From Eutreptiella sp. 'Long Island Sound 2002' (taxonomy: Eukaryota > Euglenozoa > Euglenophyceae > Eutreptiales > Eutreptiaceae), in the NCBI GenBank assembly GCA_964036045.1, contig OZ038380.1, forward strand, positions 124,292,899 to 124,356,898: DNA of 64,000 nucleotides, given 5' to 3'. The notes beneath the pieces are model-generated. The model worked only from the letters and a program-made list of their open reading frames with translations. It was not told the DNA's origin and made no database searches. Shown here piece by piece: positions 119 through 27,189 of the stretch. The position numbers and the translations under genes were made by a program. The stretch's first letter is position 1, and each line of letters begins with the position of its first letter.

Positions 119-241
119 ATAGGGGGAACCGACAAGGGCCGAGAGAGCAAGGGTCAGGGTGCAGGGAAGTTGGGTTCTGGTTGCCCCCGACGATTGCAAC
201 CCCCATCCGCCTTTGCACTCGTGAAGTGGAGATCTAAGGAG

Positions 242-1855: not shown

Positions 1856-1911
1856 TATAAATATAATTACGGTCCTGCCCTAAGCATTGCATATTCCGTT
1901 TCCGGTGTGGG

Positions 1912-2129
1912 ATGTTTGAGTGGCCATTGAGAGTGTGTCTGCACGGTGTTGTTGGTCGACTGTGGCGGGGACTATGGGGAGCGTGGAGTGCTGAGTGCCC
2001 CACCATAGCAGACCGCGACCTTTTGCCAGTACGAGCATACAGCTTTATGTGGCTGGGAGGGGGCACAGCGGGGAATGCAAGTCAGCGCAGGGAGGGCTGG
2101 CTGGACTGCCTCTTGTTCCTTTCCGGTGG
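1912..2129 (+). pseudogene. 5' half of a small ORF split by the nested transposon (resumes at 6385)
   Basis: An ATG at 1912 opens a frame that runs to the target duplication GGTGG (2125-2129). Removing the nested transposon and one GGTGG copy joins 2129 to 6385 in frame, and the frame then stays open to a TGA at 6611-6613, giving about 148 residues in total. The product is Cys-, Trp- and Leu-rich and matches no family I know. It follows the RT-like gene by 57 bp. The frame running through the repaired junction is the main support; a frame of this length in GC-rich DNA could also be chance. Confidence 0.35.
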
Positions 2130-2154
2130 CTTAGGCGTCACAAGTTGCCCACCC
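2130..2154 (+). repeat. Left TIR of nested transposon
   Basis: Perfect 25-bp inverted match to 6355-6379, immediately preceded by GGTGG. It contains one CpG, in GGCGTC. Confidence 0.9.
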
Positions 2155-2334
2155 TCTAGGACCCTGTATACGCGCGATTTGACAATATTCTACATTTCTA
2201 CTTTGAGTATGTTATTTGACGTATGCGACCAAAGTTGTTGGCAGAGCTGTATGACACCCGTTGAAACACGTGTTGATGTGTTAGCCTTGTGTATCCCCGT
2301 CTTCTAGTGTGTTGTATTTGACGTTTTTTTGAAG

Positions 2335-2635
2335 CTGGCCGAAATTTCGGCCAGGTTTTGGGTAACATTGCAAACAACTATGTGTATATGCAGTTTTTGA
2401 CCCTTCTGGCCGAAATTTCGGCCAGCTTTTTGGTTTCTTGGTGAATAGGCATGATTATTTTCATTTTTCTTAGGGCTGGCCGAAATTTCGGCCAGCTTTT
2501 TGGTCTGTTCACTATTCAAGCACTTATATTCTGGTTTTTGGGTGGGCTGGCCGAAATTTCGGCCAGCTTTTCCTATTTTTGAACATGTAAGCAATTATTT
2601 CCCCTTTGAACACATCTGGCCGAAATTTCGGCCAG
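2335..2635. repeat. Five copies of a 20-bp palindrome, left subterminal cluster
   Basis: The perfect palindrome CTGGCCGAAATTTCGGCCAG occurs at 2335-2354, 2406-2425, 2476-2495, 2547-2566 and 2616-2635, so starts are 71, 70, 71 and 69 bp apart. The DNA between copies is AT-rich and not repeated. The core is identical in all copies while the spacers differ, which points to selection or recent homogenisation of a binding site, for example for the element's own transposase. The last copy ends 19 bp before the first ATG of the downstream frame, so a promoter or operator role is also possible. Confidence 0.9.
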
Positions 2636-2654
2636 CTTGCAATTGTCGTTGTTC

Positions 2655-4919
2655 ATGAGTATTACACCATACAACCTACATAACTGTTTCCTTGTCTCAG
2701 CATTAATGTCTTCTGCTATTACTGCCACTGTTGTACATGCTGCAGTTACTGGTGCTTTTGCTACTACAGCCAAAGGGCTGTTGCGAAATGCATTACGTGG
2801 TGGGACTCTGCAAAAGCTTTTGCAATTCTGCCTCTTGTTGCGGAAGAATCGCAGGAGCCGGCACTCCCTGACACAGTTGAAGGCCGCCGCCACTGAGAAG
2901 AAGCCCCCACGATGGTACATGACATTTTTGTCACAGTTCCATGCCCTATACTGCCTGCTGCGCCGTATGGCCCTCCCATACTCTAACTGTGGGTCTGGTT
3001 ACAACTGGGGTATTATGTCCTGCCGCCAACGCCGTAAGGTAGGAGTCCTTGGTCAGTGTAACACTAAGCAGGAGTCCATTCACCATCGTGCTGGACTAGC
3101 AGCACACAACTTGTGGAACACCATGCACCGTAGGCAAGTTTGTATATGGTTTGATAACCTGAGGCGTTACAGGTCGGGAGCTGATCCCCATTCACCCGAC
3201 TTAACCCTAAACTGTACAGCTGTTGCTGTTTTGCACACTACTGCCCTACCTGCATACCGGGGTCTGCCGGAGCTGGCCGAAATTGAGGCCAGGGTACCAA
3301 AGGTTGCTGATGACATCTTTCGCTCACATAGAGCATTGTTTCATCGTATTGATGTTGCCAACCAAGGTATTCAGAGAGTTTGGGTTCGTGCTCCTTTGGA
3401 TATTGCCAGAAAAGATGTGCGTTCCCTCAACTAGAGACCCTTTTTCCTGTCTGAGCTCCGCTCCGGCACACACAAAGAGCTTTTGCAACTCGTGGTTGAT
3501 TTGTCATGTGTGGAACACCGCACCAGACACTGTGTTCCGCTGCTTGTGGACATGAAAATACACTTTGCCCTACTTAAGCTGTGTTATGGTGCTGCTTATG
3601 TTCCCTGGAATGTACCACAATTACTGTTGGGTTTTCCTTTGGTGTACGGAGTATGGCATGGCTATAAGTATTGCGTTGAATTGATCTACAGGGCGTTCCT
3701 GCCGTTCATTAAGTTTTTGGAGCAGGGGAACAGCCTTCAGGTTGGGTCTATCCTCCCTCGCAAGGTCAAGGTCATCCATATGGAGAAGACGTTGCTTGGA
3801 CTCATGCTAGCCACATCGTCCAATAGAGGCAGACTAGATGAGCGCGTCACTTCCCTGCTCAATAGCCAGCGGGACTTGACACCCATTCAGCGCAAGGGTT
3901 TGCGTATGTTATTAGCCCTTAAGGCTTTGCTGTACACATACTGTCCAGCTGCTTTCAGCATTGGGACTTTGGTTCGTGAGTGCAACTGGGAGGGACGGGG
4001 GGCAGGTTCCGGTATTGTAGCTAAGCAGGCACTTGAGATGTCCCTACTGCTCATGCTGAACATCCTAAAGCCCGAGGAACAGTTAACCACGGAGTATGTG
4101 AAAACCACCGCTGTTGCTCTTTTGTTTTGGAGTCAGTGGCATTCCGCCTCCCTAGGGTGTATCCACTCTGAGGAGCTGGGTGAGGCACTTCTGAGTCGGT
4201 TCTCAGCCCACTGTCGCCGCAACACTGCCTGTACTAGTGTCCAACAGTCGTCTGATTTATTTCTGACACTTCCCCCTGTCCAACCCGGAGAGAAAGTTTT
4301 GCGTGGTGTGCTGACTGAGAGATCCCTGGCAATGTTCTCTGCCAATCTTAAACAATTCATCTTGACAGCCCATACACAGAGCCTGCCCATTTGTGTTCCC
4401 GTTCCGGACTATAAAGTTGAGGTGAGAAGACTGGATGGAGTTGAGGATTTGACGTTCCCCGGTACCATGTCTAGGACACGAATCACCACAGACCGTTTAA
4501 AAGTGGTTCTGTTGCATGCAATGCAAAATCTGGTTGCGCGCACCAGGGTTCCTGAGGGTGTTGAGGATTTTTTACAGACAAATGCACCTGCCCGCACTGC
4601 TGCCGAGCAAGGGGTGTTGCGTACTGCACATGCTTCTATTCGCGCTGCCAACCGTGCACCGCCTGCTGCTGCTGCTGCTGCTCCTGGTGGAATTGCCTTG
4701 CCCCCAAAGCCACCCCCGAAGCCCCGAGCCAGAGGCCCCCCAGTACCCCCCCCGGCCCCCCCCCGCCCAGTACCCCCCCTCCCCGCCCTTGATGATTCCA
4801 TTGCTGTCGACTCTTGTGATAGTGACCAGGATATTGATTGTGATGCAGACAGCGTTGCCTCCTTTGAAGCCCTAGATGAGGCGGAACACATCGGTGTGGA
4901 TACCCAGGATTGGGACTGA
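2655..4919 (+). CDS. Candidate transposase of nested transposon, interrupted by in-frame TAG 3432-3434
   Basis: The frame opens at ATG 2655, meets TAG at 3432-3434, and continues in the same frame to TGA 4917-4919 (754 codons). Coherent protein lies on both sides of the TAG. Before it there is a basic region (residues about 60-90) and the block VCIWFDNLRRYRSG. After it come PLLVDMKIHFALLKLCYG, LVYGVWHGYKYCVELIYRAF and HMEKTLLGLMLA. The Asp in FDNL, the Asp in LVDMK and a following Glu would suit an RNase-H-fold DDE catalytic triad; this is inference. The C-terminal tail is a poly-Ala/Pro linker and a strongly acidic segment (DSCDSDQDIDCDADS). As the main frame of a TIR element it is the natural transposase candidate. 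A degenerate palindrome copy (3273-3292) lies inside the coding sequence. The TAG may be a mutation, readthrough or a sequence error. Confidence 0.55.
3273..3292. repeat. Degenerate palindrome copy within coding sequence
   Basis: CTGGCCGAAATTGAGGCCAG differs from the perfect element palindrome at two positions in its right half. It encodes LAEIEA in the transposase frame. It may be a chance or captured copy of the subterminal site. Confidence 0.6.
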
Positions 4920-5072
4920 TTTCTGTTTGCAGCTGTGTTTGTCACTGTGGTATGGGTTCTGCCACGCATTGCCAGTGATTTTGGTGTGTCATTTCTTTTG
5001 AGCCTGGTTCCGGTCCCAGAACGGGCAGGCAACTGGTTTTTGCTGGGGACTCTGTCTGTGTCTTTTGCAAGC

Positions 5073-5594
5073 ATGATGTCTACCAGGTTTTCCAAGGACT
5101 GTAATGTTGTGTGTGCCCTTTTGGGTGAGGAGACTGTTGTGCCCGATGACTTTGTTCAGCTCATCAGAGCAGGTATCACCAACGCCGACACGTGCCCCCC
5201 CAAGTCATGGGAGGATGTGTACCACGACTTGGGGCAAGGTTTTCCGGTGGATTGTTCTGGGGTTAGGTATGTAGATGAGGATCCTGAGGAGCAAGATGGG
5301 GAGGCAGAGTCGCAACCAGAGACACAGACTCCAAAGAAGAAACCCAAAACTGCCCCTGCCCCCTCACCCAGTGGCACGCAGTGCGCTCAGGCCACCCCAG
5401 CTTCCTCCTCAGGCACTGTTGCCCCTACTGGCAAAGGTATGAATACTTTTGTGAATCATTTTTCACCATCCCAGGGTGGAAACACACAGTCACAGAACTC
5501 TGCCACTGCCAAGTCTGGTGCTGCAGCCCCTGCCAAGCAGCCTGCTAACACAGGTGCTAAGAAGCCCCGTGCATCTGGTCTGCGCAAGCGCTAA
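5073..5594 (+). CDS. Hypothetical protein with acidic middle and Lys/Arg-rich tail, in frame with upstream gene
   Basis: The frame is the same as 2655-4919, separated only by TGA 4917-4919, and is open from 4920. The first ATG pair is at 5073/5076, which gives 173 residues ending at TAA 5592-5594. Residues 1-60 look globular (FVQLIRAGITNADTCPPKSW). Then come an acidic stretch (DEDPEEQDGEAES), a Lys-rich PKKKPKT segment, a Ser/Gln/Ala-rich linker, and a basic end KKPRASGLRKR. The basic tail suggests nucleic-acid binding or nuclear localisation. It could be the C-terminal part of the transposase made by readthrough, or a separate small protein. A TTTCTGTTTGCAG acceptor-like string follows the TGA, but I found no donor in matching phase. 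Confidence 0.45.
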   Translation: MMSTRFSKDCNVVCALLGEETVVPDDFVQLIRAGITNADTCPPKSWEDVYHDLGQGFPVDCSGVRYVDEDPEEQDGEAESQPETQTPKKKPKTAPAPSPSGTQCAQATPASSSGTVAPTGKGMNTFVNHFSPSQGGNTQSQNSATAKSGAAAPAKQPANTGAKKPRASGLRKR

Positions 5595-5633
5595 TGCCAG
5601 TCCTGCTGCTTATGTTGCCTGTCAGCATGAAGT

Positions 5634-5956
5634 CTGGCCGAAATTTCGGCCAGCATGCAGTCCTCAGCCTCTTCAGCCTTTTATTATTGTGTTTCCCCAT
5701 AGGCACTGCAAAAGTCTGCTTTGATTCGTCAGGTGGCAAGTATTTGCTTGTAATTGAGTATATTATGTTGCACACCCTGTTCAAATGTCACTGCTCCTGT
5801 GTTCCTTGCTCATGTCTACTGTCTTAGGTACCCATTTCAGTGATCATATTCGGAGTTTCGATGGACCTGGCCGAAATTTCGGCCAGCTTAGGCCTGTCTG
5901 TCAAATAGGACCATGTGTTTGGACTTTTTCGAAGAGCTGGCCGAAATTTCGGCCAG
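5634..5956. repeat. Three copies of the 20-bp palindrome, right subterminal cluster
   Basis: Perfect copies lie at 5634-5653, 5867-5886 and 5937-5956, the last two again 70 bp apart. With the left cluster they bracket the coding region. No coding potential is seen in 5957-6354, which is AT-rich and includes a C-run near 6104-6115. Confidence 0.9.
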
Positions 5957-6354
5957 GTTGGTTAAAATAGGAAATACAAGTACATGCTTTGGGATAGTTT
6001 TTTGTGTGCTTCAATGAAAGGTATGTTTGGGGTTCCCTCATCTGTGGTGTATAGGGGGGTTCTGTGATCAACCTCGAACAAAGGGGAGAGAAAAATAGGC
6101 AGCCCCCCCCCCCCCACACACTGGAATGCAGTGGTCTAAATGTAAAACAACACTATATTTTGGTGATTGAATGTCTTTATTTTGAAAATCTGTGTGTTTC
6201 CAGAAATGCAAATAATGGCATATATTTGAAATACACACCTTGTTTTTGCATGTTGCCACCAGGGGGGTTTGGGTACCCAAAAAATAACACCCCTTTTCAC
6301 ATACTTTTCCCCTCATTACAACATGGACTTCCGTGGGCCATAGCGCCAGGTGGG

Positions 6355-6379
6355 GGGTGGGCAACTTGTGACGCCTAAG
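6355..6379 (-). repeat. Right TIR of nested transposon
   Basis: Reverse complement of 2130-2154, immediately followed by GGTGG (6380-6384). Confidence 0.9.
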
Positions 6380-6384
6380 GGTGG

Positions 6385-6932
6385 GATGCTGTTTTTTTTT
6401 TGCCATCTGCCGGCGTCGCGCCTGTTGAGGGCAGATTGTGCGCCCTGTGGTGAGCATGTGGTAAGGGAGGGAGTGGTCCAGCCGGCGCCCTGGACCCGGG
6501 TGACTTTGTTTTGTGGTATCTCTGGTCGTCTGGTTTGTTCTTCCGATGACTTGCCAGCTCTGTGTGCTTTTGCAGGGCTGCTGTGCGCACAGCCCCACGG
6601 ACCAGCTATATGACACGAGTGGCATGGTGCGGCACCAATTGATGTGATACAGGGTGGTTTAGTATGAGGGTGGGAAGACCTGTGCGCACTGAAGTGTGGA
6701 CCTGCTCGGTTCATGTCTTGTGTGAATAGGGAGTGAGAGACAGAAAGGGCATGGGCGTGTATGCACGAGACAGCCAGGTGCCTGTGGTTTGAAAGCAATT
6801 TTCTGAGATAACCGTCCCTGGTGCGCACAGTGCGCTGTCCTCTGCTGTGTACAGCCTTTTGGAATTCTACTGATGAAGTCTTTCACTGTGCCCGCTTGCT
6901 AGCGCTTCTTCTTAGCAGCTACACCCCCGGAG
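6385..6932 (+). other. 3' part of outer element 1
   Basis: Up to TGA 6611-6613 the sequence continues the small frame begun at 1912. From 6614 to 6932 I see no coding or repeat structure. The extreme end carries CTTAGCAGCTAC (6911-6922), which resembles the right terminus of element 2 (CTTAGCAGTTAC). This may be coincidence or a shared terminal sequence. Confidence 0.4.
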
Positions 6933-7118
6933 ACGGAGGTATCCGATAATTCATGGAGGGGGTTAAATAATTCACGGAGGTATCAAGTAATTCACGGAGG
7001 GGGTTAAATAATTCACGGAGGTATCAAATAATTCACGGAGGGGGTTAAATAATTCACGGAGGTATGAAATATCGCACGGAGGGGGTCAAATAATTGACGG
7101 CGGTATGAAATAATTCAC
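6933..7118 (+). repeat. 41-bp satellite between elements 1 and 2
   Basis: About four and a half dimers of the same array and orientation. The right-hand units are more diverged, with TCGCACGG and TTGACGGCGG variants. The block ends TTCAC at 7118. Confidence 0.95.
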
Positions 7119-7136
7119 TGTAACTGCTAAGATCTG
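7119..7136 (+). repeat. Left TIR of element 2
   Basis: 18 bp, TGTAACTGCTAAGATCTG, perfectly inverted at 14528-14545. Confidence 0.9.
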
Positions 7137-7145
7137 TTCACATAG

Positions 7146-7179
7146 ACGCGTACGTGTTGAAACCTCAACACGTACGCGT
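7146..7179. repeat. Terminal hairpin made of two phased array motifs
   Basis: The arms ACGCGTACGTGTTGA (7146-7160) and its exact reverse complement (7165-7179) are separated by AACC. The two CGTACG centres (7149 and 7171) are 22 bp apart, the same step as in the larger arrays. The hairpin lies 10 bp inside the left TIR, as a subterminal transposase site would. Confidence 0.85.
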
Positions 7180-7388
7180 TGGTTTTTTCTTTGTTGGAAA
7201 TTTGTTATTTTTCATGCAAAATTCATGTGTGGGGTATCACCTTACCCAACCCAACCCCTCTTTGCACTTCCCCTACACCACTGGGTGCCACTGCAAACAT
7301 TGCCGACCGTAGGTCGCCTTCTCCCTCTGCATAGTGTCCCAAAAACCATACTGAATTTCCCAAAACCTTGCTTTCAGATTGTCCTCTG

Positions 7389-7556
7389 ACGCGTGCGTGT
7401 TGGAAGTGCAACGCGTACGCGTTGGGTGCGTGGCGCGTACGTGTTGGTGTTTCGACGCGTACGCGTTGGTAACTTAACACGTACGCGTCGAAACAGCAAC
7501 GCGTACGTGTTAGATGACGGACGCGTACGCGTTGATCTGCAGGTGCGTACGCAGTT
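7389..7556. repeat. Phased array 1: eight CpG-rich 22-bp repeats
   Basis: CGTACG or near-identical centres fall at 7392 (CGTGCG), 7414, 7436, 7458, 7480, 7502, 7524 and 7546, exactly 22 bp apart. The conserved core is about 12-14 bp (ACGCGTACGYGTT) and the 7-9 bp between cores varies. It lies downstream of the transposase gene, near the left end. Confidence 0.9.
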
Positions 7557-7589
7557 CGTACGCACCGCCTACTCGTTATGTGCTATGGC

Positions 7590-7660
7590 AGCTGGTTGGT
7601 CTAGAGGTATGTGCATGTTCCTTGCGTTTCGGAACCCTCGGTTCGAACCCTTGCATACGC
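7590..7660 (+). ncRNA. tRNA-like relic with Pol III A and B boxes
   Basis: TGGTCTAGAGG (7597-7607) fits an A box and GGTTCGAACCC (7640-7650) fits a B box, with spacing as in a tRNA. Between them GTTCC/GGAAC can pair as an anticodon stem with a 9-nt loop. The D-arm text resembles eukaryotic tRNA-Pro. The acceptor stem does not pair and the T stem has two mismatches, so this is not a working tRNA. It may be a tRNA-derived SINE head or a Pol III promoter carried by the transposon. Confidence 0.4.
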
Positions 7661-8161
7661 ACTGTGTCTGCACCTTAGGATGAGGACACACAAGAGCAGG
7701 AGAGGGCGTGAGGCGACCCCAACCGCATGACCAGGGGCCCACAAAGGAGGTGGATCCGGCCGAAGACGCGATGAGGAGATGCCCGCCATAGACCTACCTA
7801 GTGGGGCAACCAACAAATACAGGCGCTGAAGACAGGCATTGAAATGAGACCACTAGCTGCCCTTGGTTTTTTTTAGTAATAAGGCCTGCACCAGAACACC
7901 ATGATGAATGCAATGTGCATTGAAGACGTAGTATACTTGCACAAAGCAATTCAATGGAATCCCAAATCAGATATCATACACAAGAGCTGAAACACCATAC
8001 AGACTCCTAAGGCGTGTTGGCCTTCCAATACGTTTCGTGTTCCTTCACGCGTGGTTGTTGTGTCCATGCACGCACCCATACATCCCACCCCCTCCTTAAC
8101 AAACCCGAATCCAGATTATCATTTTTTACAACTTCCCTCCACCCTTTCACGAAAACTTGCC
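7661..8161. other. Non-coding stretch, element 2
   Basis: No convincing coding sequence, repeat or RNA. The sequence turns C-rich toward 8160-8220, which is the 3' end and the Gly/Lys-rich C-terminal coding part of the minus-strand transposase. Confidence 0.5.
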
Positions 8162-9667
8162 TCACCAGTCTACCTCTCCGTCCCCGTACCCCCCCCTTTT
8201 ACTTTCCTTGCCCCCCCCCTTGAAGCTCCTAAACCGAATCTCTGTTTTCAGAGTCTTGTGCCTTTCTTCTGCCTTGAAGGCAGCAAAGGCGCCAAGGGCA
8301 TGCCACTGCTTAGCATACCCAAGTAGGTGGTCAACCCAAAGGTGCACCCACAGGGTTTGCCCCAGTTGGCACCTTTTGTGATGCACTGCCATTTGGGGTA
8401 GCACATTTTTTAGGGTGTCAATTTCTTGGGCTCCTAACCGCCCCTCCTTTTTGGAAATGGTTGCACTTTTGTGCAAACAGTCCCACCATGAGTCAAAATT
8501 TTGCGCCCAAGTATGACCCCCTTCCACGACATGTTGCAAGAGACCTTCATCATTCAGCCCTACAATGAGGGGACCCCAGGCCTTTGTCGAAACAAATAGA
8601 ATTGCTGCCCTCTGTTCACAACGGAGTAACGGTTCGTCACATGCCTGCCCTCCGATGTCTTGCGGTGCAACACTGTGTGAGGCAACCCTGCAAGGATTTA
8701 CATGGGTCTGCACCCATGTAATGGCGCGTCTCTTCGTGAAGCGATGGTGCTGTACAAGAGCCCTCCAGCATCCATCAAGGCCACTGTGAGTTACACGTGT
8801 GACCCCATGCAATGCATAGTAGGGAGGCCTGTACTTGGGCACAATGCTACGTAGCACCTGCCCGTACCAGGTCCAGTGTGACAGAATGGGTGAAAGTCCC
8901 TTTCCAAAGTCGCGATCGCAATGTGCCCTGCATTTGCCGCATACCCAGCACACTGGGTCCACACTGGTGCAGTTCCATCTTTTGATGCCTGCCATTGCCT
9001 GTTGTGCAATGACATCTGCAACCAGGAAAATATGGGGTTTTTCCATGTAACCCCCTCGTACCTCATACCTTGTGTTTAGGGCCTCTTGCACCTGCTCATC
9101 CATTTTGCTAACCCTTGTGAGCGATCGCAGCAGAACACGTTTTTCAGAGCCGTGCAAAATGCACCAGCTACCAAGCGGGTTGCCCGATCCAAGCACTCCA
9201 AGCATAAAATGCTCGAAGTGCCGCTTCTGTAGTTGTGTACCATCCACACATAGGCGTACCCATAGGTTCGGGTACAAATTTGCCTTACGGGCGGCCATCA
9301 TGAGTCCCAGCTTCTCCCTCAAATTTGTACCGGCCCCCAGCAATATGTGGTCCCCGTCCATTGCATTGTAGTCCACACGTCAGATTTCATCAAGGGGGCA
9401 TTTGATCCTTGACGTAGGGATGGAGTACTGGAGGGCCCGCCAGCTTTTGCCCTCTTTGCGGCAATCCCACAGGAGGGCCTCGGCATGCCACATCTGGTTT
9501 TTGGGCATGCGCCCTTCCGTCGTTTTCAAAATGAGGGTGCCCACGTTTTCGCCAGCTTGCACTTGCCAGGTTGGGCCAAGAATTTCTGTGACTGCCGTTT
9601 GCAGTTCGGCCATCCGTTCCCATCTCTTAGTCCTTCCCAACTGTTGGTACTCCTTGAACGGGGGCAT
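8162..9667 (-). CDS. DDE-like transposase with Cys cluster, in-frame TGA at 9380-9382
   Basis: ATG at 9665-9667 starts a frame of 501 codons, broken only by TGA 9380-9382 (codon 96). After the TGA come YPNLWVRLCVDGTQLQKRHF (Asp about residue 142), HIFLVADVIAQQAM (Asp about 218), a metal-ligand-like cluster CWVCGKCRAHC (about 240-250), YALHGVTRVTHSGLDGCW, and near the C-terminus AFKAEERHKTLKTE (Glu about 467). D-D-E order with a Cys cluster between the second Asp and the Glu suits RNase-H-fold transposases with a zinc insert, a feature also of KDZ transposases. The C-terminal tail is Gly/Lys-rich. It is the only transposase candidate in element 2. The TGA may be a mutation, readthrough or a short unrecognised intron. 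Confidence 0.6.
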
Positions 9668-9694
9668 GTTCCTTGACGGGGGGGAAAAAAAACC

Positions 9695-10057
9695 CTAGGG
9701 AAAGACAACAGGGGGGGGGGGGGTGCATGGACACAACAAGGTTCACACGTGTAGGCAACATGCAACACGTACGTCTGCGCGTACGAGCCGCGTACGCGTT
9801 CCATTCTTAATGCGTACGTTCCACAACACCGAATCGTACGTTTCATGAACGCAACGCGTACGCGCCAGAACAGCGAATCGTACGCGTCATGACCCCAGCG
9901 CGTACGCACCAACACAGCAACGCGTACGATGCAACACTGTAACGCGTACGCACCACGTACGCCAGCGCGTACACGCCCCTGCCACAACGCGCGCGTGTTG
10001 AAGCACACTTCACCCATCAATCATTAATGCACAATTATTAATGCATGCACATGCTAC
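9695..10057 (-). other. Possible intron or spacer containing phased array 2
   Basis: On the minus strand a donor-like AGG/GTAGCA follows the TET/JBP-like domain at 10058/10057, and an acceptor-like CTTTCCCTAG ends at 9695, just upstream of the transposase ATG. If spliced, the dioxygenase and transposase would be one transcript. The phase is off by one, but A8 and G8 homopolymers lie between acceptor and ATG, so a length error is possible. It is equally possible that this is an ordinary intergenic spacer. Confidence 0.3.
9768..9995. repeat. Phased array 2: about ten CpG-rich 22-bp repeats
   Basis: CGTACG centres lie at 9791, 9813, 9835, 9857, 9879, 9901, 9923 and 9945, exactly 22 bp apart. 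Off-phase copies occur at 9768, 9780 and 9956, and decayed copies near 9968 and 9989. Several copies read TCGTACG instead of GCGTACG. Confidence 0.9.
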
Positions 10058-10643
10058 CCTGCACATAGCCGGAACCCAAGACTGCGCAGCAGTACGAGGT
10101 CCTCCCAGGACACCTTGCCAAGACCGACCTGGGTAAAAAACACCAGTGCGTAGCGCTCACCACGCCACGGGGCTGGCATGTGCAAGTACCACTGCAAAAA
10201 ACAACCCCATTCCGGGCATCCAATGCCACCCCATCCTCATCCACTCTGTCTTGGCCCTCTGGCCCTGCAATACATGCCATTGTGTAGGGGCGGTTTCCCT
10301 TTGTGGGGAACACGAGCCCCGCCTCTTCCACACAAAACTCCCCACCTGAAAAATCACCAACATTCACAATGGCACTCAAGGGCAAGTGGTCGTGGTGCTT
10401 GTGCCCTGGCATAGTGCTTGAAGGGGAAATACTATGGTTCACTTGGACGGCAGTCCAAGTGAACCACGATGGCAACCGTGCGCGCCCGTAGGCGTTGATG
10501 GCCCGGCACACCTTCGGGAAGTTGCGTGTTGCAACCGCCACCCGGACATTGCCACGCTGCTCCACCCCAAACATCGCGGAGCGCAATCGTACTCCCCACC
10601 TGTCCTTGGTCTGCCACGCCCCCCCATCCAACCCCTCCAACAA
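10054..10643 (-). CDS. TET/JBP-like 2OG-Fe(II) dioxygenase domain, one frameshift
   Basis: No ATG start is seen: the frame is continuous upstream through TGA 10686-10688 into the coiled-coil segment. Visible motifs are RSAMFGVEQRGNVRVAV, the iron-binding HHD within GHKHHDHLPLS (codons 83-85 counted from 10643), and VNVGDFSGGEF. After a shift at the T6 run (10196-10201 as A6 on the plus strand) the frame reads LQWYLHMPAPWRGERYALVF, supplying the distal His and the 2OG-binding Arg. HxD, then GDFxGGE, then H...GERY in this order is the double-stranded beta-helix pattern of TET/JBP-type nucleic-acid oxygenases, which oxidise 5-methylcytosine or thymine. The frame ends at TAG 10054-10056. The shift in a homopolymer may be a sequence error. 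Another 2OG oxygenase family remains possible. Confidence 0.55.
10435..10466. repeat. 14-bp perfect inverted repeat inside the dioxygenase frame
   Basis: The arm TGGTTCACTTGGAC (10435-10448) and its exact reverse complement (10453-10466) surround a 4-nt loop GGCA. It encodes WFTWTAVQVNH just before the HxD motif. It would form a strong hairpin in RNA or single-stranded DNA. Confidence 0.85.
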
Positions 10644-10685
10644 AAAACATAGGTGGGCAGAGGGGAGCGCAGCAGCCCCTTGGAG

Positions 10686-11845
10686 TCAACTCCCACCACC
10701 ACTGCCACCGCCGGGCTGCTCCGCCTGCTTGCCTGCCTGCAGACTCCGGACGTTGTACTTGTCCGTCAATGCTATAAGGGCTGTGAGAGTCTTCTGTCCC
10801 TGTGATGTCTCCTTGCCTCTTGCATCCGACAGTGAATCCCTCAGGTCCTCAATGGATGTGCTGGCTTGGACAAGGCCATCCCTGATTTCCATTGCTGCCA
10901 GTTGCAAAAAAACTCCGCTGGTCTTCCACATCCTTCCCCCCCTCCCTAGGGCCAGGGCTGGCTGGGCCTTTCTTGCTTGCCCTCACAGAGGCATCCTGCA
11001 GCTTCACTCTTAAGTCCCTAATCTCACTGTCTTTTTCTCTTCGCTCTTCCTCCCACTTTACACAGTCTTTCCCTCAGCATGTCCTCTGCAGCTTTCTGTG
11101 CCGCCGCACTCTCCTTGCGCACCTTCTCAAGTTCCACAATTCGCGCCTTTAGCTGCGCCTGTGTGTCCTTGAGGTGCTCACGCAGTGGTCCTCAGGGGGA
11201 GATGGGGGGCTGTTGGGGGACTACGGGCCCCCCCTTGGCACCAAGGTTTGGTTTCTTGGCACGGGACATACGAGAACCGTGCCGCGATTGGTCGGTGTCG
11301 TAGCCCTCCTCTCCCCCCCCCGTCCCCGTGTCCCTCTTCCCCCCAACCTTCCCCGCAAGGAGAAGCTTCCACCTCTCCATTGCACCCTCCACCTCTGCAA
11401 CAACAGCAGCGTCGGTGATTGGCAGGTAACCCGCTACCCCTGACCACTGAGCACGCTTGGCCTGCTTGAGCTGCCCTCCCTGCACACGCCACGTCTGCAC
11501 GTAACTGTGGCTGTCACCTTTGATCTGGTACAAAGTCCCCCCAACGGCATGGCCCTTCATCCACATGGGAAAGCGGACGGTCATGGGCTCAAGCCATTTG
11601 ACCGCACCACTGTCATCCTTTACCTTTGCCTGCAACGTAACCTGATCAAAAAAACTATACTTGGCAACATCCCCAACATGGACGTTGTCCACCACATCCT
11701 CCTTACTCACTTGCACCAGCTGCCCTGCAATTGTCCCTATCGACTCAGGGTCCGAGGCAACCAAGGAATATGGAGGCGTCGGGTGCACCTGTGCTTCAGA
11801 GGGCCAAGGGCGCCGCTCCTTGTACTTGAAGGGGGTGACGTTCAA
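10686..11845 (-). CDS. Coiled-coil exon of element 2, broken by TGA 11192-11194 and two shifts
   Basis: It begins after a strong acceptor (CTTTCCTCTTGCAG) at 11845 and reads LNVTPFKYKERRPWPSEAQ, then a globular domain (QLVQVSKEDVVDNVHVGD; WSGVAGYLPITDAAVVAEVE) to TGA 11192-11194. In the same frame a heptad-rich helix follows (LREHLKDTQAQLKARIVELE). A shift near 11050-11075 leads into WEEERREKDSEIRDLRVKL, and one at the A7 run 10906-10912 leads into EIRDGLVQASTSIEDLRDSL, ending with a Gly/Ser linker and TGA 10686-10688. The linker leads, in frame, to the TET/JBP-like domain. This looks like a long oligomerisation module between two dioxygenase domains. I do not recognise the N-terminal domain. 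The shifts lie at or near short runs and may be sequence errors. Confidence 0.45.
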
Positions 11846-12150
11846 CTGCAAGAGGAAAGCGTAGAGACACGTTAATTATGAAACAACACGTGTGGGCAAC
11901 ACACGCAACACGTACGCGTTGGTACATTAGCGCGTACGATCTACTTGGGCAACACGTACGTGCTGGGACGTCAACGCGTACGAGGCGCTTCGGCAACGCG
12001 TACGTGTTGCTACCCCAACACGTACGATCTGTGTGGCCTACACGTACGTGTTGGCAGGTCAACACGTACGCACCAAAAACGTAACGCGTACGATGCACTT
12101 GCACAAAACGTACGCGGTGCGCACGTGCCCCATGCGCAAGACATGCATAC
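11846..12150 (-). other. Predicted phase-0 intron holding phased array 3
   Basis: On the minus strand the donor GAG/GTATGC lies at 12151/12150 and the acceptor CTTTCCTCTTGCAG ends at 11846. The exon from ATG 14205 to 12151 is 2055 nt, exactly 685 codons, and the frame at 11845 is open, so splicing joins phase 0 to phase 0. Without splicing the first frame runs into the repeat array and ends there. The intron is 305 bp and is mostly array 3. Confidence 0.6.
11911..12114. repeat. Phased array 3: ten CpG-rich 22-bp repeats
   Basis: CGTACG centres lie at 11911, 11933, 11955, 11977, 11999, 12021, 12043, 12065, 12087 and 12109, all exactly 22 bp apart. A decayed copy (CGTGTG) sits one step earlier, at 11889. 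Spacers differ from copy to copy. Confidence 0.95.
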
Positions 12151-14205
12151 CTCCCCATAATTATCACAATTGTCCATGCACCCACATGAGTACGCCATTC
12201 CGCCCGTCGCCGTCGGCCGCTGCACCACCCAGTTCTGCTCCACCGCCTCCGCAACACTTGCGGGCGCCACATGCAGGGCATGCCCCATGGCTGCCCACTC
12301 CATCCATTCCGGCCCATCCTCATCCCGCCTCAACACGTAACCACACGTGGCAAACGTGAACACCAACGAACCTTTCTCAACCGCAAACCGTGTCCCGCCG
12401 TCAAAATTTCCCTTTGGGAGGTACCAACGGTGAAACCGGGCCAAGGGACATGGTGGCTCCTCGGGGCCCGGGGGGCACTTAAAAAAGAAAGTTGCACCTT
12501 GCACACCATGGCCCAAAATCACAACGTCGCCACAATCGGGGATAGCTTGCCGTCGCCGAATAAGCAACGGCGCCGAAAAATGGGTAAAAGATTCCCAAGG
12601 GATAGGAACACCTTTCGCATCTTTTAGAAATTGAACCATAGGAGGAAGGGCATACAATTGGCGAGCAAGATGCACCTTTGACATGGTGGCAGCATGCTCC
12701 AATGGGACAAACGGGATGAACAAAGTGTAGCGCCCCTTCTCCCCACCACCCGCCCCGCGATGAAAGGTGCAACCTTTTAAAAGAAGGATGTCACCCAATT
12801 CCATGGAACACACATCCCAACGATTGGACTCATGTTGCCCAACCTGATGTGAACCCACTCCGACTTGCAAAGCACACTCGGGAGGATTATTGTCCAAGGG
12901 AATAAAGACTTGGATGCAATCCTTCATCCAAGGTGGACCCATAAGGTTGTGATCCGAATGGACCAACTGATACCCATCCCATGGGGCGCATGGGGTACAA
13001 TGTAGCAATTTCAGATCCACGGGTTTCAACGCACTCCACTCAACACCCTCAATGCGCGTCACCGCACCCAACACTTGCGTGCGCCACTCCTCGGGCAACC
13101 ATTTCGAAGACCGTTTTGTTTGCTTCGGAATCACGTTGGCACTTGCATAAGTGTCATCTTCCAACGTAATCACCTCCCAATCACGGGGGGCAATGTCAAC
13201 GTTTAAAATGGCTTCGTCAGTAACCGCATCAAACGAATGCCGTTCAATGAAATAACCGGCATGTGCAAACCCATGCACATTTTCAACGGGTGCGTCCGGA
13301 AGCAATTGGTTTGAGGGCAAGGGCATATCACAAAAAAATGGTGTGGGTGCACCGTAACCCAATGCAAAAACTTCTGCTGCGGTTGCATACACATATGGCC
13401 CTGAGCAATCGGGGTGGTAATCTACCGAAAGCGGTGGGGGCACACATTGAATGGGGCCATGCTCATTCCATTCATCCGATGCACACCCCATGTACCGCAC
13501 AAAGGAGTCCGTGCGACAAATGCTATCCACGTCACTGGCAACGGGATTGGGGAAAAGGGTACCATCGTTGAGCACCGCATATTTGTGGGTAAGGGTCTTG
13601 GCAACTCTCTTACGCAAGGACGCATTCATAGTTGTGAAAAGTGCGTCACACTCACCAACACTCAAACTAATGGAAACCATGAGCAAACGCTCACCCACAA
13701 ACACATACAAAGCAGCAGGGAGAAGGGTGTGGGGCATGGCATCGGCATTGGGCCATGCAAGAACGGAACGACTATCAACAACAGCAATAACACCTAGTCC
13801 TTGCGCATTCACATCCAAAAGCAAAAGATCTTGCCATGAACTTGGCAATTCCGGGAGACCCTTAATGTCTTCCTCACCCAACGCTAAATGAACAACAGCA
13901 ACACCATGAACACCGTGAGCAAGATCTCCTGCCTCACGAGTGTCCGTGAACCAACGCTCCACCGATTCATCCTCCTCCAGCAACCCAACCTCCAAGGCCC
14001 GCTTCACAATCTCGGCGGGCCTATTGCCTTTCGCCACCACCTCATCCTCCTCCTCCTCCTCCTCCTCCAAATCCACGTCCCCCTCCACCACGTCTTGACC
14101 CACACTTGTCCTTGGCGCCCTCCTTGCCACGGCCCCGGCTTCGGCGGCAGGCACGGAGCCTTTCCTCGCCACCTTCTTCTTCCCGGGTTTTTTCTTGCCG
14201 GGCAT
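12151..14205 (-). CDS. 2OG-Fe(II) dioxygenase with basic/acidic N-terminus (exon 1)
   Basis: ATG at 14203-14205 and 685 codons to the predicted donor. The N-terminus is Lys-rich (MPGKKKPGKKKVARKG), followed by an Ala/Arg stretch and an acidic run of about ten Glu/Asp near residues 46-55, suggesting nuclear localisation. A double-stranded beta-helix is visible at 400-500: HSDHN (His416, Asp418) for iron, ELGDILLLKGCTFHRGA (His482), and KGRYTLFIPF (Arg492) for 2-oxoglutarate. The order and spacing resemble phytanoyl-CoA-hydroxylase-like and related oxygenases more than the TET/JBP-like domain downstream. A second conserved-looking region follows (GDVVILGHGVQGATFFF; ARFHRWYLPKGNFDGGTRF). Residues 100-320 are unassigned. 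It is the first gene of the minus-strand unit, and array 4 lies upstream. Confidence 0.65.
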
Positions 14206-14311
14206 GTGTGCAGAAAAGCACTAACGAAAGGAAAACAGACATGAAGGAAAGTAAAAGTGTTTCTTTGTCACCTCAAAAGGAGCACAATTCAACCGCCAGT
14301 ACTGCAGGCAG

Positions 14312-14505
14312 CGTACGGGCACCATAGGCAGCGCGCACGCGTTGCGGTGTGAGTGCGTACGCGCCAAAATACCAACGCGTACGCGCCAAAATACCAGCGC
14401 GTACGCACTCAGAACACAACGCGTACGCGCTCAGATCGCAACGCGTACGCCCTGGTTCGCTGGTTCATGCGCGTTACAAAATCAGTGCGTACGATAACGC
14501 GTACA
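14312..14505. repeat. Phased array 4: CpG-rich 22-bp repeats at right end
   Basis: Centres lie at 14312, 14334 (CGCACG), 14356, 14378, 14400, 14422, 14444, 14466 (decayed) and 14488 on a strict 22-bp grid, with an off-phase copy at 14500. It lies between the dioxygenase ATG and the right TIR, where a promoter or a transposase subterminal site would be. Confidence 0.9.
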
Positions 14506-14527
14506 CATACATGTGATCAAAATGGGG

Positions 14528-14545
14528 CAGATCTTAGCAGTTACA
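14528..14545 (-). repeat. Right TIR of element 2
   Basis: CAGATCTTAGCAGTTACA, the reverse complement of 7119-7136. Satellite resumes directly with ACGGAGG. Confidence 0.9.
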
Positions 14546-17500
14546 ACGGAGGTATCAAGTGATTCACGGAGGGTGTTAAATAATTCACGGAGGTATAAGA
14601 TAATTCATGGAGGGGGTGAGATAATTCACGGAGGTATGAAATAATTCACGGAGGGGGTTAGATAATTCACGGAAGTATGAAATAATTCACGGAGGGGGTT
14701 AAATGATTCACGGAGGTATCAAATGATACACGGAGAGGGTTGAATGATTCACGGAGGTATGAAATAATTCACGGAGGGGGTTACATAATTCACGGAGGTA
14801 TGAAATAATTCACGGAGGTATGAAATAGTACACGGTGGGGTTAATATTTCAGGGAGGGGGTTGAATAATTCACGGAGGTATCAAATAATTCACGGAGGGG
14901 GTTAAAGAATTCACGGAGCTATGAAATAGTTCACGGAGGGGGTTGACTAATTCACGGAGGGATCAAGTGATTCACGGAGGGTGTTAAATAATTCACGGAG
15001 GTATCACATAATTCATGGAGGGGGTGAGATAATTCACGGAGGTATGAAATAATTCACGGAGGGGGTTAGATATTTCACGGAAGTATGAAATAATTCACGG
15101 AGGGGGTTAAATGATTCAGGGAGGTATCAAATAATTCACGGAGGGGGTTACATAATTCACGGAGGTATGAAATAATTCACGGAGGTATGAAATAGTACAC
15201 GGTGGGGTTAATATTTCAGGGAGGGGGTTAAATAATTCACGGAGGTATCAAATAATTCACGGAGGGGGTTAAATAATTCACGGAGGTACGAAATAATTCA
15301 CCGAGGGGGTTGAATAATTCACGGAGGTATCAAATAATTCACAGAGGGGGTTGAATAATTCACGCAGGTATCAAAAAATTCACGGAGGGGGTTGAATAAT
15401 TCGGGGAGGTATGAAACAATTCACGGAGGAGGTTACATAATTCACCCAGGTATGAAATAATTCACGGAGGGGGTTAAATGATTCACGGAGGCATGAAATA
15501 ATTCACGGAGGGGATTCAATAATTCACGGAGGTATGAAGTAATTCACTGAGGGGGTTTTATAACTCACGAAGGTATGAAATAATTCACAGAGGGGGTTAA
15601 ATAATTCACGGAGGGATCAAATAATTCACGGAGGGGGTTAAATAATTCACGGAGGTATCAGATAATTCACGGAGGGGGTTATATAATTCACGGAGGTATC
15701 AAATACTTCACGGAGGGGGTTAAATAATTCACGGAGGTATGAAATAACGCACGGAGGGGGTTAAACAATTGACGGCGGTATGAAACAATTCACGGAGGTA
15801 TCAAATAATTCAAGGAGGTGTGAAATGATTCACGGAGGGGGTTGAATAATTCACGGAGGTATCAAATAATTCACTGAGGGGGTTAAATAATTCACGGAGG
15901 TATCAAATAATTCACGGAGGGTGTTAAATAATTCACGGATGTATCAAATAATTCACGGAGGGGGTTAAATAATTCACGGAGGTATCAAATAATTCACGGA
16001 GGGGGTTGAATAATTCACAGAGGTGTGAAATAATTCACGGAGGGGGTTACATAATTCACGGAGGTATGAAATAATTCATGGAGGTATGAAATAATCCACG
16101 GAGGGGGTTAAATAATTCACGGAGGTATCAAATAATTCACGGAGGGGGTCAAATACTTCACGGAGGCATGAAATAATTCAGTGAGGGGGTTAAATAATTC
16201 CGGAGCTATGAAATAGTTCACGGAGGGGGTTAAATTGTTCACGGGAGTATGAAATAATTCACGGAGGTATCAAATAATTCACGGAAGGGGTTAAATAATT
16301 CACGGAGGTCTGAAGTAATTCAGGGAGGTATCAAATAATTCACGGCGGGGGTTGAATAATTCACGGAGGTATCAAATAATTCACGGAGGGGGTTGAATGA
16401 TTCACGGAGGTATGAAATAATTCGCGGTGGGGGTTAAGTAGTTCACGGAGGCATGAAATAACTCACGGAGATATCAAATAATTCACGGAGGGGGTTAAAT
16501 AATTCACAGAGGTGTGAAATAATTCACGGAGGGGGTTAAATGATTCACGGAGGTATGAAGTAATTCACGGAGGGGGTTCAATAATTCCACAAGGTATGAA
16601 ATAATGCAGGGAGATATCAAATAATTCTCAGAGGGGGTTAAAAAATTGACGGAGGTATCAGATAATAGATGGAGGGGGTTAAATAATTCACGGAGGTATC
16701 AAACAACTCACGGAGGGTTTACATAATTCACGGAGGTATGAAATAATTCACGGAGGGGGTTAAATAATTCACGGAGGGGGTTCAATAATTCACGAAGGTA
16801 TGAAATAATTCACGGAGGTATCAAATAATTCACGCAGGGGGTTAAATAATTCACGGAGGGATCAAACAATTCACAGAGGGGGTTGAAAAATTGACGGAGG
16901 TATCAGATAATTCATGGAGGGGGTTAAATAGTTCACGGAGGTATCAAATAATTCACGGGGGGGTTAAATAATTCACGGAGGTATCAAATAATTCGCGGAG
17001 GGGGTTAAATAATTCACGGAGCTACGAAATAATTCACGGAGGGGCTTACATATTTCACGGAGGTATGAAAAAATTCACGGAGGGGGTGAAATAATTCACG
17101 GAGGCATGAAATAATCCACGGAGGGGGTTAAACAAATAATTCACGGAGGGGGTTGAATAATTCATGGAGGTATCACATAATTCATTGAGGGGGTTAAATA
17201 ATTCACGGAGGTATCGAATAGTTCACGGAGGGGGTTAAATAATTCACGGAGGTATGAAACAATCCACGGCAGGGGTTACATAATTCACGGGGGTATCAGA
17301 TATTTCATGGAGGGGGTTAAATAATTCACGGAGGTATGAAATACTTCACGGAGGGGTTAAATAATTCACGGAGGCATGAAATAATTCACGGAGGGGGTTG
17401 AATAATTCACGGACGTATCAAATAATTCACGAAGGAGGTTAACTGATTCACGCAGGTATCAAATAATTCACGGAGGGGGTTAAATAATTCACGGAGGTAT

Positions 17501-20500
17501 CAAATAATTCATCGAAGGGGTTGAATAATTCACGGAGGTATGAAATCATTCACGGAGGGGGTTAAATAATTCACGGAGGTATCAAATAATTCACGGAGGG
17601 GGTTAAATAATTCACGGAGGGGGTTAAAAAATCCCCGGAGGTATGAAATAATTCACAGAGGTATCAAATAATTCACGGAGGGGGTTAAATAATTCACGGA
17701 GGTATCGAATAGTTCACGGAGGGGGTTAAATAATTCACGGAGGTATGAAACAATTCACGGCAGGGGTTACATAATTCACGGGGGTATCAGATATTTCATG
17801 GAGGGGGTTAAATAATTCACGGAGGTGTGCAATAATTCACGGAGGCGGTTGAATAATTCACGGAGGTATAGAATAATTCACTAAGGGGGTCAAATTATTC
17901 ACGGAGGTATGAAACAAGTCACGGAGGGTGTTAAATTATTCACGGAGGTATTAAATAATTCACGGAGGGGGTTGAATAATTCACGGAGGTATCAAATGAT
18001 TCACGGAGGGGGTTAAATAATTCACGGAGGTATCAAATAATTCAAGGAGCGGGTTGAATAATTCACGGAGGTAAAAATAATTCACGGAGGGGGTTGAATA
18101 ATACACGGAGGTATGAAATAATTCACGGAGGGAGTTAAATAATTCACGGAGGTATCAAATGATTCACGGAGGAGGTTAAAGGATTCACGGAGGTATCAAA
18201 TAGTTCACGGAGGGGGTTAAATAATTCACGGAGGTATCAAATAATTCATGCTGGGGGTTGAATAATTCATGGAGGTATGAAATATTTCACGGAGGGGGTT
18301 AAATAATTCACGGAGGTATCAAATAACTCACGGAGGGGGTTAAATAATTCACGGAGGGGGTTAAATAATTCACGGAGGTATGAAATAATTCACGGAGGTA
18401 TCAAATAATTCACAGAAGGGGTTAAGTAATTCACGGAGGTGTGAAATAATTCACCGAGGGGGTTGAATAATTCACGATGGTATAGAATAATTCACGGAGG
18501 GGGTTGCATAATTCACGGAGGTATCAAATAACTCACGGACGGGGTTAAATAATTCACGGAGGGGGTTAAATAATTCACGGAGGTATGAAATAATTCACGG
18601 AGGTATCAAATAATTCACAGAAGGGGTGAAGTAATTCACCGAGGTGTGAAATAATTCACCGAGGGGGTTGAATAATTCACGATTGTATAGAAAAACTCAC
18701 GGAGGGGGTTGCATAATTCACGAAGGTATGAAATAATTCACGGAGGGGGTTAAATAATTCATGGAGCCATGAAATAATTCACGGAGGGGGTTCAATAATT
18801 CACGCAGGTATCAAAGGATTCACAGAGGGGGTTAAATAATTCACGGAGGTATGAAACAATTCACGGAGGGGGTTACATAATTCACGGAGGTATGAAATAA
18901 TTCACGGAAGGGTTAGATGATTCACGGAGGCATGAAATAATTCACGGAGGGGGTTAAATAATTCACGGAGCTATGAAATAATTCACGAAGGTATGGAATA
19001 ATTCACCAAGGGTGTTAAATAATTCACGGAGGTATTAAATAATTCACGGAGGTATTAAATAATTCGCAGAGGTATCAAATAATTCACGGAGGGGGTTAAA
19101 TAATTCACGGAGGTATCAAATAATTCAAGGAGGGGGTTGAGTAATTCACGGAGGTATGAAATAATTCACGGAGGGGGTTAAATAATTCACGGAGGTGTCA
19201 AATAATTCAAGGAGGGGGTTAAATAATTCACGGAGGTATGAAATAATTCACACAGGTATCAAATAATCCACGGAGGGGGTTAAGTAATTCACGGAGGTGT
19301 GAAACAATTCACCGAGGGGGTTGAATAATTCACGGAGGTATAGAATAATTCACGCAGGGGGTTACATAATTCACGGGGGTATGAAATAATTCACGGAGGG
19401 GGTTAAATAATTCATGGAGGCATGAAATAATTCACTGAGGGGGTTAAATAATTCACGGAGGCTTGAAATAATTCACGAAGGTATGAAACAATTCACCGAG
19501 GGTGTTAAATAATTCACGGACGTATTACATAATTCACGGAGGAGGTTGAATAATTCACGGAGGTATCAAATGTTTTCCGGAGGGGGTTAAATAATTCACG
19601 GAGGTATCAAATAATTCAAGGAGGGGGTTGAATGATTCACGGAGGTAAAAATAATTCACGGAGGGGGTTGAATAATACACGGAGGAATGAAATAATTCAC
19701 GGAGGGGGTTAAATAATTCACGGAGGTATGAAATAATTCACGGAGGGGGTTACATAATTCACGGAGGTATCAAATAATTCACGGAGGAGGTTAAAGGATT
19801 GACGCATGTATCAAATAGTTCACGGAGGGGGTTGAATAATTCACGGAGGTATCAAATGATTCATGGAGTGGGTTGAATAATTCATGGAGGTATGAAATAA
19901 TTCACGCAGGTATCAAATAATTCACGGATGGGGTTAAATGATTCACTGAGGGGGTTAAATAATTCACGGAGGTATGCAATAATTCACGGAGGGGGTTGAA
20001 TAATTCACGGAGGTATGAAATGATTCACGGAGGTATCAAATAATTCACGGGGGGGGTTGAGTAATTCACGGAGGTATCAAACAATTTACGGAGGGGCTAA
20101 ATAATTCACAGAGGTATCAAAAAACTCAAGGAGGGGGTTGAATAATTCACGGAGGTATCAAATAATTCACGGAGGGGGTTAAATAATTCACGGAGGTATG
20201 AAATGATTCACGGAGGGGGTTGAATAATTCACGGAGGTTTAAAATATATCATGGAGGGGTCGGAATAATTCACGGAGGTACGAAATGATTCACGGAGGGG
20301 GTTAAATACTCTACGGAGGCATGAAATCATTCACGGAGGGGGTTAAATAATTCGGGGAGGTATGAAATAATTCACGGAGGGGGTTAAATAAGTCACGGAG
20401 GTATGAAATAATTCACGGAGGTATCAAATAGTTCACGGAGGGGGTTAAATAATTCACGGAGGTATCAAATAATTCACGGAGGCCGCCCAATAATTCACGG

Positions 20501-26500: not shown

Positions 26501-27008
26501 TGTTGAATAATTCACGGAGGTATGAAATAACTCACGCAGGAGCGAAAATACTTCACGGGGGTATCAAATAAATCACGGAGGGGGTTAAATCATTCACCGA
26601 GGTATGAAATAACTCACGGAGAGAGTTCAATAGTTCACGGAGGTATCAACTAATTCACGCAGGGGGTTAAATATTTCACCGAGGTATCACGGAGGGGCGT
26701 CAATAGTTCACGCAGGTATGACATGATTCGCGGCGGAGGTATGAGATAATTCAGGGAGGGGGTTGAATAATTCACGGAGTTATCAAATAATGCACGGAGG
26801 TATCAGATAATTCACGGAGGGGGTTAAATAATTCACGGAGGTATGAAGTGATTCACGGAGGGGATTAAATAATTCACGGAGGTATCAAATAATTTACCGA
26901 GGGGGTTAAATAATTCACGGAGGTATGCAATAACTGATGGAGGAGGTTAAACAATTCCGGTAGGTATGAAATAATTCACGGAGGGGGTGAAATAATTCAC
27001 GGAGGTAT
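14546..27008 (+). repeat. 41-bp satellite block, 12.5 kb
   Basis: Continuous dimers with scattered point changes, single-monomer deletions (two GTATC-type monomers in a row) and sporadic 1-3 bp changes. No gene, RNA or other repeat is seen within it. Divergence is uneven: duplicated segments carry shared private variants, which shows that local tandem duplication shapes the array. Confidence 0.97.
18275..23160 (+). repeat. 2.4-kb tandem segmental duplication inside the satellite
   Basis: Rare variants recur in order at a fixed offset. CGATGG in a TTCACGATGG unit is at 18475 and again at 20888 (offset 2413). GGCCGCCC, unique to these places, is at 20481 and 23017 (offset 2536). The offsets differ by 123 bp, exactly three 41-bp dimers, explained by extra units in the second copy near 21870-21990. 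Edges are approximate: copy 1 runs about 18275-20690 and copy 2 about 20690-23160. Confidence 0.85.
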
Positions 27009-27127
27009 AAAATCTTAGCTCAGCCGTGCCTGAGCTTTGGTTTTGCTCGTCGGGTGGTGTGTGTGTGCGCATGCGTGTGTGCAGTGAGGCTCTGTACTTG
27101 TAGAGCATTTTTGCTTGTTGCCAGCAG
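27009..27127 (+). repeat. Split direct repeat A1
   Basis: 119 bp, starts AAAATCTTAGCTCAGCC, identical to 33125-33243. It contains an inverted repeat GCTCAG/CTGAGC at 27018-27035, a possible recombinase-binding arm, and a GT-rich stretch. Confidence 0.95.
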
Positions 27128-27189
27128 ACCATAGGTGGTCACACGTAGAGCCTGCTCCGTGACACTTTGGAACGACCCGGTCTGTGAAT

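Follow-up and report, generated by a model that had tools for sequence, protein, structure and literature searches.

We analysed a 64,000-nucleotide stretch of the Eutreptiella sp. 'Long Island Sound 2002' assembly (contig OZ038380.1; hereafter the window), which holds a DNA transposon at positions 7119-14545. Bounded by terminal inverted repeats (TIRs), this element contains a DDE transposase gene, two domains with the motifs of 2-oxoglutarate (2OG)-Fe(II) oxygenases and a coiled-coil protein block, every coding block lying on the minus strand, and four arrays of CpG-containing palindromes. Its features, in order along the window, are as follows, with the basis of each in brackets.

7117..7118, unstranded: left copy of the target duplication, AC (satellite counts)
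7119..7136, plus: left TIR, TGTAACTGCTAAGATCTG (inverted-repeat search)
7144..7181, unstranded: palindromic site pair, 22 bp apart, near the left end (site counts)
7387..7578, unstranded: array 1, left subterminal, CGTACG mostly at 22-bp steps (site counts)
8010..9667, minus: DDE transposase gene with D, D, C(2)C, H(4)H and E (motifs, relatives; open relative P0010)
9763..10000, unstranded: array 2, upstream of the transposase gene (also in P0021, P0023 and P0030)
10054..10685, minus: second 2OG-Fe(II) oxygenase domain, with TET/JBP-like motifs HxD, GDFSGGE and H...GERY (open relative P0024)
10686..11845, minus: coiled-coil protein block, N part, with a helix of ~70 residues (broken here; open relatives P0025 and P0026)
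11846..12150, minus: probable intron, containing array 3 (GAG/GTATGC and TTGCAG/TTG; conservation pattern of relatives)
11906..12119, unstranded: array 3, ten CGTACG at exactly 22 bp (also in P0001, P0002 and P0003)
12151..14205, minus: gene B, 2OG-Fe(II) oxygenase-like, of phytanoyl-hydroxylase type (motifs, weak domain matches; frame open here)
14312..14510, unstranded: array 4, upstream of gene B, at the right end (site counts)
14528..14545, minus: right TIR (inverted-repeat search)
14546..14547, unstranded: right copy of the target duplication, AC (satellite comparison)

Positions 7119-14545 hold a genuine DNA transposon with a TIR at each end. Its TIRs are 18 bp long and form a perfect inverted repeat; when the 64 kb were searched with up to 3 mismatches allowed, the two element ends were the only matches (0.02 expected). 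Because a 41-bp satellite surrounds the element, the empty site can be read. The flanks are AATTCAC and ACGGAGG, and in the satellite stretches AATTCACGGAGG occurs 843 times and AATTCACACGGAGG not at all, implying a clean insertion with a 2-bp AC duplication. The repeats and the duplication agree with the borders proposed in an earlier note, made from the sequence alone, which prove exact. TIR matches in two Ruminococcus contigs, from bacterial genomes, were taken as chance, with an estimated ~7 random 18-mer matches expected.

Within the window, the palindromes of the arrays are specific to the element. CGTACG occurs 38 times within it and once elsewhere in the window, against 0.96 expected and a maximum of 4 in 300 shuffles, and we therefore reject a chance origin. 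Of the 37 intervals between these sites, 27 measure 22 bp, three 11 bp, two 44 bp and one 12 bp, the other four being jumps between arrays. This count and this phasing bear out the four arrays of the earlier note. The four-CpG core that it gave them, ACGCGTACGCGT, does exist, but in only three occurrences, all in array 1; the core usually found is CGTACG, which has two CpGs. The centre of the array unit is a 16-bp palindrome, CAACGCGTACGCGTTG. Among 49 sites scoring at least 10/16, a set that includes some chance sites (shuffles give 14.5 positions at this score), the commonest CpG changes fall on the outer pairs (G to A in 13/49, C to T in 12/49), and the inner CpGs are mostly kept. Palindromic sites reach within ~30-55 bp of both element ends, and arrays stand upstream of three coding blocks: gene B, the coiled-coil block and the transposase.

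Relatives of the element's proteins were sought in a database of 5.8 billion proteins, in which the members of a cluster may include several assemblies of one species. The transposase has relatives in 14 clusters (152 member sequences), gene B in nine (161 member sequences, with P0001 alone representing 52) and the coiled-coil/oxygenase block in nine (64 member sequences, 51 of them represented by P0026); the query for this middle block was 600 residues long, so that oxygenase-only proteins under ~330 residues would escape. No relatives were found in viral contigs. Relatives of all the coding blocks thus exist elsewhere, as the earlier reading of the element as a transposon had called for, seen as proteins and in pieces. 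Some of these pieces are joined. In P0006 gene B is fused with a portion of the transposase region, and in P0030 the coiled-coil block stands with a frame-shifted oxygenase end and array 2, implying that the blocks of the element travel together. In P0009 the right TIR appears in translation (15-residue match) next to a flank unlike the one here and is fused to an interior segment of gene B, which points to an internally deleted copy at another site. Mapping the proteins back showed array 3 following gene B in three of them (P0001, P0002, P0003) and array 2 in another three (P0021, P0023, P0030). Arrays 2 and 3, over which the relatives' proteins extend (they do not extend over arrays 1 and 4), therefore stand at the same places in relatives, which answers for these two arrays the question of whether other copies have them. 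Judged by these protein sequences, the element is a multicopy DNA transposon.

The copy in the window is decayed: transposase, coiled-coil block and second oxygenase contain stops or frame changes, and gene B is open. The transposase is interrupted by a stop near 9380, and its frame changes near 8160-8183. Its open relative P0010 has the motifs VDGT (183), LVAD (257), CWVC (282), HLWVDH (484) and EERHK (509), and P0018, a distant relative of ~40% identity and the only cluster so remote, has counterparts of them all, giving the common set VDGT, L[VI]AD, CW[VC]C, HLWVDH and EERHK. The DDE-like transposase of the earlier note is thus upheld by catalytic and zinc motifs that a distant relative has as well. 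P0010 matched nothing in Pfam at E values up to 10. According to PMC12730594, the CMCT clade (EnSpm/Plavaka/Transib) is marked by D-D-E with C(2)C and H(3-4)H between the second D and the E, by termini that are mostly 5'-CA..TG-3' and by duplications of 2-5 bp; PlavakaA, with TGT..ACA termini and a 2-bp duplication, is an exception to the CA..TG rule. The element's transposase has the whole CMCT signature. Its duplication is within the CMCT range, and its termini are TGT..ACA rather than CA..TG, so that termini and duplication together match PlavakaA. The element is of the CMCT motif type with PlavakaA-like ends, and may belong to Plavaka, which it fits by ends and motifs. Fungal Kyakuja, Dileera and Zisupton (KDZ) elements resemble it as known carriers of TET/JBP genes, but their duplications are 7-8 bp in print; with 2 bp and a CMCT-type transposase here, we rejected KDZ membership.

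Gene B contains the motifs HSD, GSH, GD and H...R in what we take to be the order of phytanoyl-type hydroxylases. Its 122-residue domain alone gave a single Pfam match, to PhyH (E 0.25, below the cut-off), and ten matches in the PDB, all to verruculogen synthase (FtmOx1, of PhyH type) at E ~0.5. The local alignment of gene B with an FtmOx1 fragment scored above all 2000 shuffles, both ways. The 2OG motifs and these sub-threshold PhyH-group matches of the isolated domain agree with the earlier note, which had listed gene B as a further 2OG dioxygenase. HxD is kept in five of six inspected relatives and lost in P0008. The whole gene B protein found only unrelated chains in the PDB (E 0.07 or worse). 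Its match to the 53-BP1 Tudor domain was sub-threshold both for the whole protein (E 0.046) and for a 298-residue piece (0.016), and was taken as chance. Otherwise, PDB searches by sequence with the element's proteins gave sub-threshold matches to unrelated proteins.

The other oxygenase domain is the one to which TET/JBP-type motifs had been ascribed. HxD, GDFSGGE and H...GERY are indeed present; a frame change near 10190-10200, however, puts H...GERY in a different frame in this copy. In P0024 the domain is open in a single frame (HxD...GDFSGGEF...H...GERYALVFF), with HxD, GG after the second strand and H...R near the C end in the expected order, an order that other 2OG families have as well. 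Against Pfam the domain found no match. Its score against a CcTet fragment was reached by 24 and 11 of 2000 shuffles, against FtmOx1 by 252 and 237 (nearly chance) and against an NgTet fragment by 932 and 989 (chance level). A TET/JBP consensus matched it at 3e-10, and itself scores 7e-12 against Pfam Tet_JBP; having been written after the sequence was seen, it is not independent evidence. Ten phage oxygenases served as yardsticks: six match Pfam Tet_JBP (E 0.003 to 7e-7, all below the curated cut-off, and one of the six annotated Tet-like), three match other 2OG families and one matches none. In hhalign, which has low power here because the query profile consists of two near-identical rows, the second domain gave E 0.013 against the six Tet_JBP-like proteins, 9e-5 against the four others, 4e-4 against a single 2OG-FeII_Oxy_3 protein and 4e-4 against the CcTet/NgTet fragments. 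The gene B profile gave E 0.19 against the Tet_JBP-like phage set and 0.21 against CcTet/NgTet, and the element's two oxygenases matched each other at E 0.08.

These comparisons favour 2OG-Fe(II) oxygenases in general but do not single out TET/JBP, since other 2OG oxygenases gave lower hhalign E values than the Tet_JBP-like phage proteins. By its motifs and weak profile matches, then, the second domain appears to be a 2OG oxygenase, for which a TET/JBP identity is plausible. Structure models failed over the oxygenase parts of both P0024 and P0001 (mean predicted local distance difference test score, pLDDT, 41 and 25; below 50 over residues 246-422 of P0024). No relatives of P0024 were found in phage records. 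A perfect hairpin (14-base arms, 4-base loop) lies at 10435-10466 within the coding region of this domain; P0024, which has its deletion junction close by, retains the residues encoded there.

Gene B and the coiled-coil block are probably joined by a 305-bp phase-0 intron. At the borders of the intervening sequence stand GAG/GTATGC and TTGCAG/TTG, both in phase 0. P0027 and P0031 are conserved after the acceptor but not ahead of it; P0030 still resembles this copy over eight residues ahead of that site. In the window there is no ATG from the upstream stop to the conserved part of the coiled-coil block. That block stops at one and the same position in P0025-P0028, whereas P0029 reads through, and in P0024 a deletion has brought the block and the second oxygenase into one frame. 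The second oxygenase may be a further exon or a separate gene. In the model of P0024, residues 177-246 form one helix (pLDDT 81-90 over 181-240). Searches of the element's proteins in Pfam, PHROGs and NCBIfam gave only matches taken as chance, the best of them to phrog_4866 (E 0.0055) and Pfam FapA (0.015), both on coiled-coil stretches.

Transposons that encode TET enzymes (TET+) are already known in fungi, CMCT ones included: EnSpm, ESTA and PlavakaB have TET+ members, and for PlavakaA no TET+ family was found (PMC12730594). The element resembles these in combining a CMCT-type transposase and a 2OG oxygenase with TET/JBP-like motifs within one pair of TIRs. It differs in its PlavakaA-type ends (TGT..ACA, 2-bp duplication), in its two oxygenase domains, of which the TET/JBP-like one is unproven as such, in a transposase without a Pfam match, and in its palindrome arrays, a feature that the consulted sections of PMC12730594 do not mention. 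A precedent for the arrays comes from Arabidopsis VANDAL elements, whose VANC proteins bind dense motif arrays located in introns and other noncoding parts of the element that encodes them, with CG methylation lost alongside; these tandem-repeat arrays also lie upstream of the transposase gene VANA (PMC5735166). The element has the same trait, its dense arrays lying in noncoding regions that include the probable intron. VANDALs, however, are MuDR elements rather than CMCT-type, and the VANC21 motif is YAGTATTAY in one orientation, as opposed to CpG-containing palindromes at a strict 22-bp step (PMC5735166). Among the literature matches listed, drawn from a partial library, none had oxygenase genes together with phased palindrome arrays in one element. 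VANC proteins are not known to be oxygenases.

The layout of oxygenases and arrays suggests, but does not prove, that the element fights the silencing of its own DNA. We favour a self-addressed form of anti-silencing, with a probability of roughly 0.4, because the layout is like that of VANC with an oxygenase in VANC's place. A dimeric element protein would bind the palindromes, which are suited to a dimer and would lie on nearly the same face of the helix; the best candidate is the coiled-coil protein, which may share a polypeptide with an oxygenase. Once bound, it would recruit the oxygenase to the promoters and ends of its own element, and oxidation of methylated CpGs there would keep the genes expressed and leave the ends open to use by the transposase. 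The most specific version, in which the element pairs a DNA-base oxygenase with an address made of its own phased CpG palindromes (at ends, promoters and intron) and an element protein delivers a TET/JBP-type enzyme so that the element demethylates itself and little else, possibly outside fungi, we consider rather unlikely.

Several observations weigh against self-addressed anti-silencing. The DNA of one copy only is at hand, the others being known from protein pieces, none whole. No DNA-binding domain was recognised in the element's proteins, and no array separates the coiled-coil block from the second oxygenase domain, whose TET/JBP assignment is unproven. The phytanoyl-hydroxylase-type family, which gene B resembles, mostly acts on small molecules. 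The neighbouring element at ~119-6932 has eight exact palindromes of its own, GGCCGAAATTTCGGCC, with five of seven intervals at 69-71 bp (0 expected); phased palindromes may be a more general trait of this host's mobile elements.

The methylation signals are mixed. The CpG observed/expected ratio of the element's genes (0.54-0.79) and their TpG/CpA ratio (1.34-1.40) are such as would be expected of a CpG-methylating host. The neighbouring element also has 0.54, so that the depletion is not peculiar to the transposon, and the high ratio of the arrays (1.77-2.14) arises because the motif itself holds CpGs. Among the amino-acid differences between copies, CpG losses account for 3/39 (to P0001) and 3/36 (to P0002) in gene B, 2/31 and 0/4 in the transposase pieces (to P0010), 0/9 (to P0026) and 0/7 (to P0025) in the coiled-coil block and 1/11 (to P0024) in the second oxygenase. 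By these counts CpG decay does not appear to dominate the differences, and strong recent decay is not supported, which also counts against the favoured reading; a low share of CpG losses would fit protection as well as it fits an absence of methylation.

The strongest alternative, which we regard as quite possible, is that the arrays are ordinary subterminal and promoter sites for an accessory protein, serving end pairing and transcription, and that the oxygenases have other substrates (proteins, RNA or small molecules) and no role in CpG methylation. Accessory-protein sites of this kind are exemplified by the TnpA sites of En/Spm. The nearness of the sites to both ends, their position upstream of three coding blocks and the phased palindromes of the neighbour are all consistent with it, as is the gene B domain, which alone matched the PhyH group only (sub-threshold, though clear by shuffles). 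It leaves the retention of two oxygenase domains unexplained, and the TET/JBP-like motifs of the second, together with the array inside the probable intron, placed as VANC arrays are, speak against it.

If the second domain were a TET/JBP enzyme, it could also oxidise methylcytosine genome-wide and with no address, the arrays being for transposition only. Non-target-specific oxidation by transposon TETs has been speculated for mushrooms (PMC12730594), and the motifs of the domain would allow it. With its TET/JBP identity unproven, and with 38 of the 39 CGTACG in the window inside the element, we think this improbable. That the element has captured its oxygenase genes and arrays as passengers and draws no function from them would fit the broken second oxygenase and coiled-coil block, but is very improbable given the well-populated open relatives P0001 and P0026, the HxD retained in most gene B relatives and the steady positions of arrays 2 and 3.

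The role of transposon-borne TET/JBP enzymes for their elements has not been experimentally validated (PMC12730594). Here the CpG palindromes can be counted, are strictly phased and lie next to oxygenase genes, which makes this question testable, with a single motif for binding and a single place at which to read methylation. If the most specific version of self-addressed anti-silencing were true, one element would combine the principle of VANC with that of TET+ transposons; if the link between oxygenase and arrays holds, the element would be a compact natural system for locus-specific demethylation.

In the rest of the window, the 41-bp satellite (ACGGAGGTATGAAATAATTC...) makes up ~36 kb, at 14546-27013 and 33399-57565, and the mobile elements are set beside it. 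The neighbouring element at ~119-6932 is flanked by the same satellite. Its open reading frame (ORF) at 113-1855 shows reverse transcriptase-like motifs by eye (QGVPIGG, FGDDIYIF), with no Pfam or PDB match, and none of the three ORFs searched from this element matched a Pfam family. A further mobile element, at 27163-31712, has a reverse transcriptase domain (Pfam RVT_1, 3e-11) and an RNase H-like one (RVT_3, 2e-5); the ORF ahead of them looks tyrosine-recombinase-like by eye, and the element is perhaps DIRS-like. Finally, a 284-bp tandem repeat in ~2 copies lies within a G+C-rich stretch, at 61827-62431.

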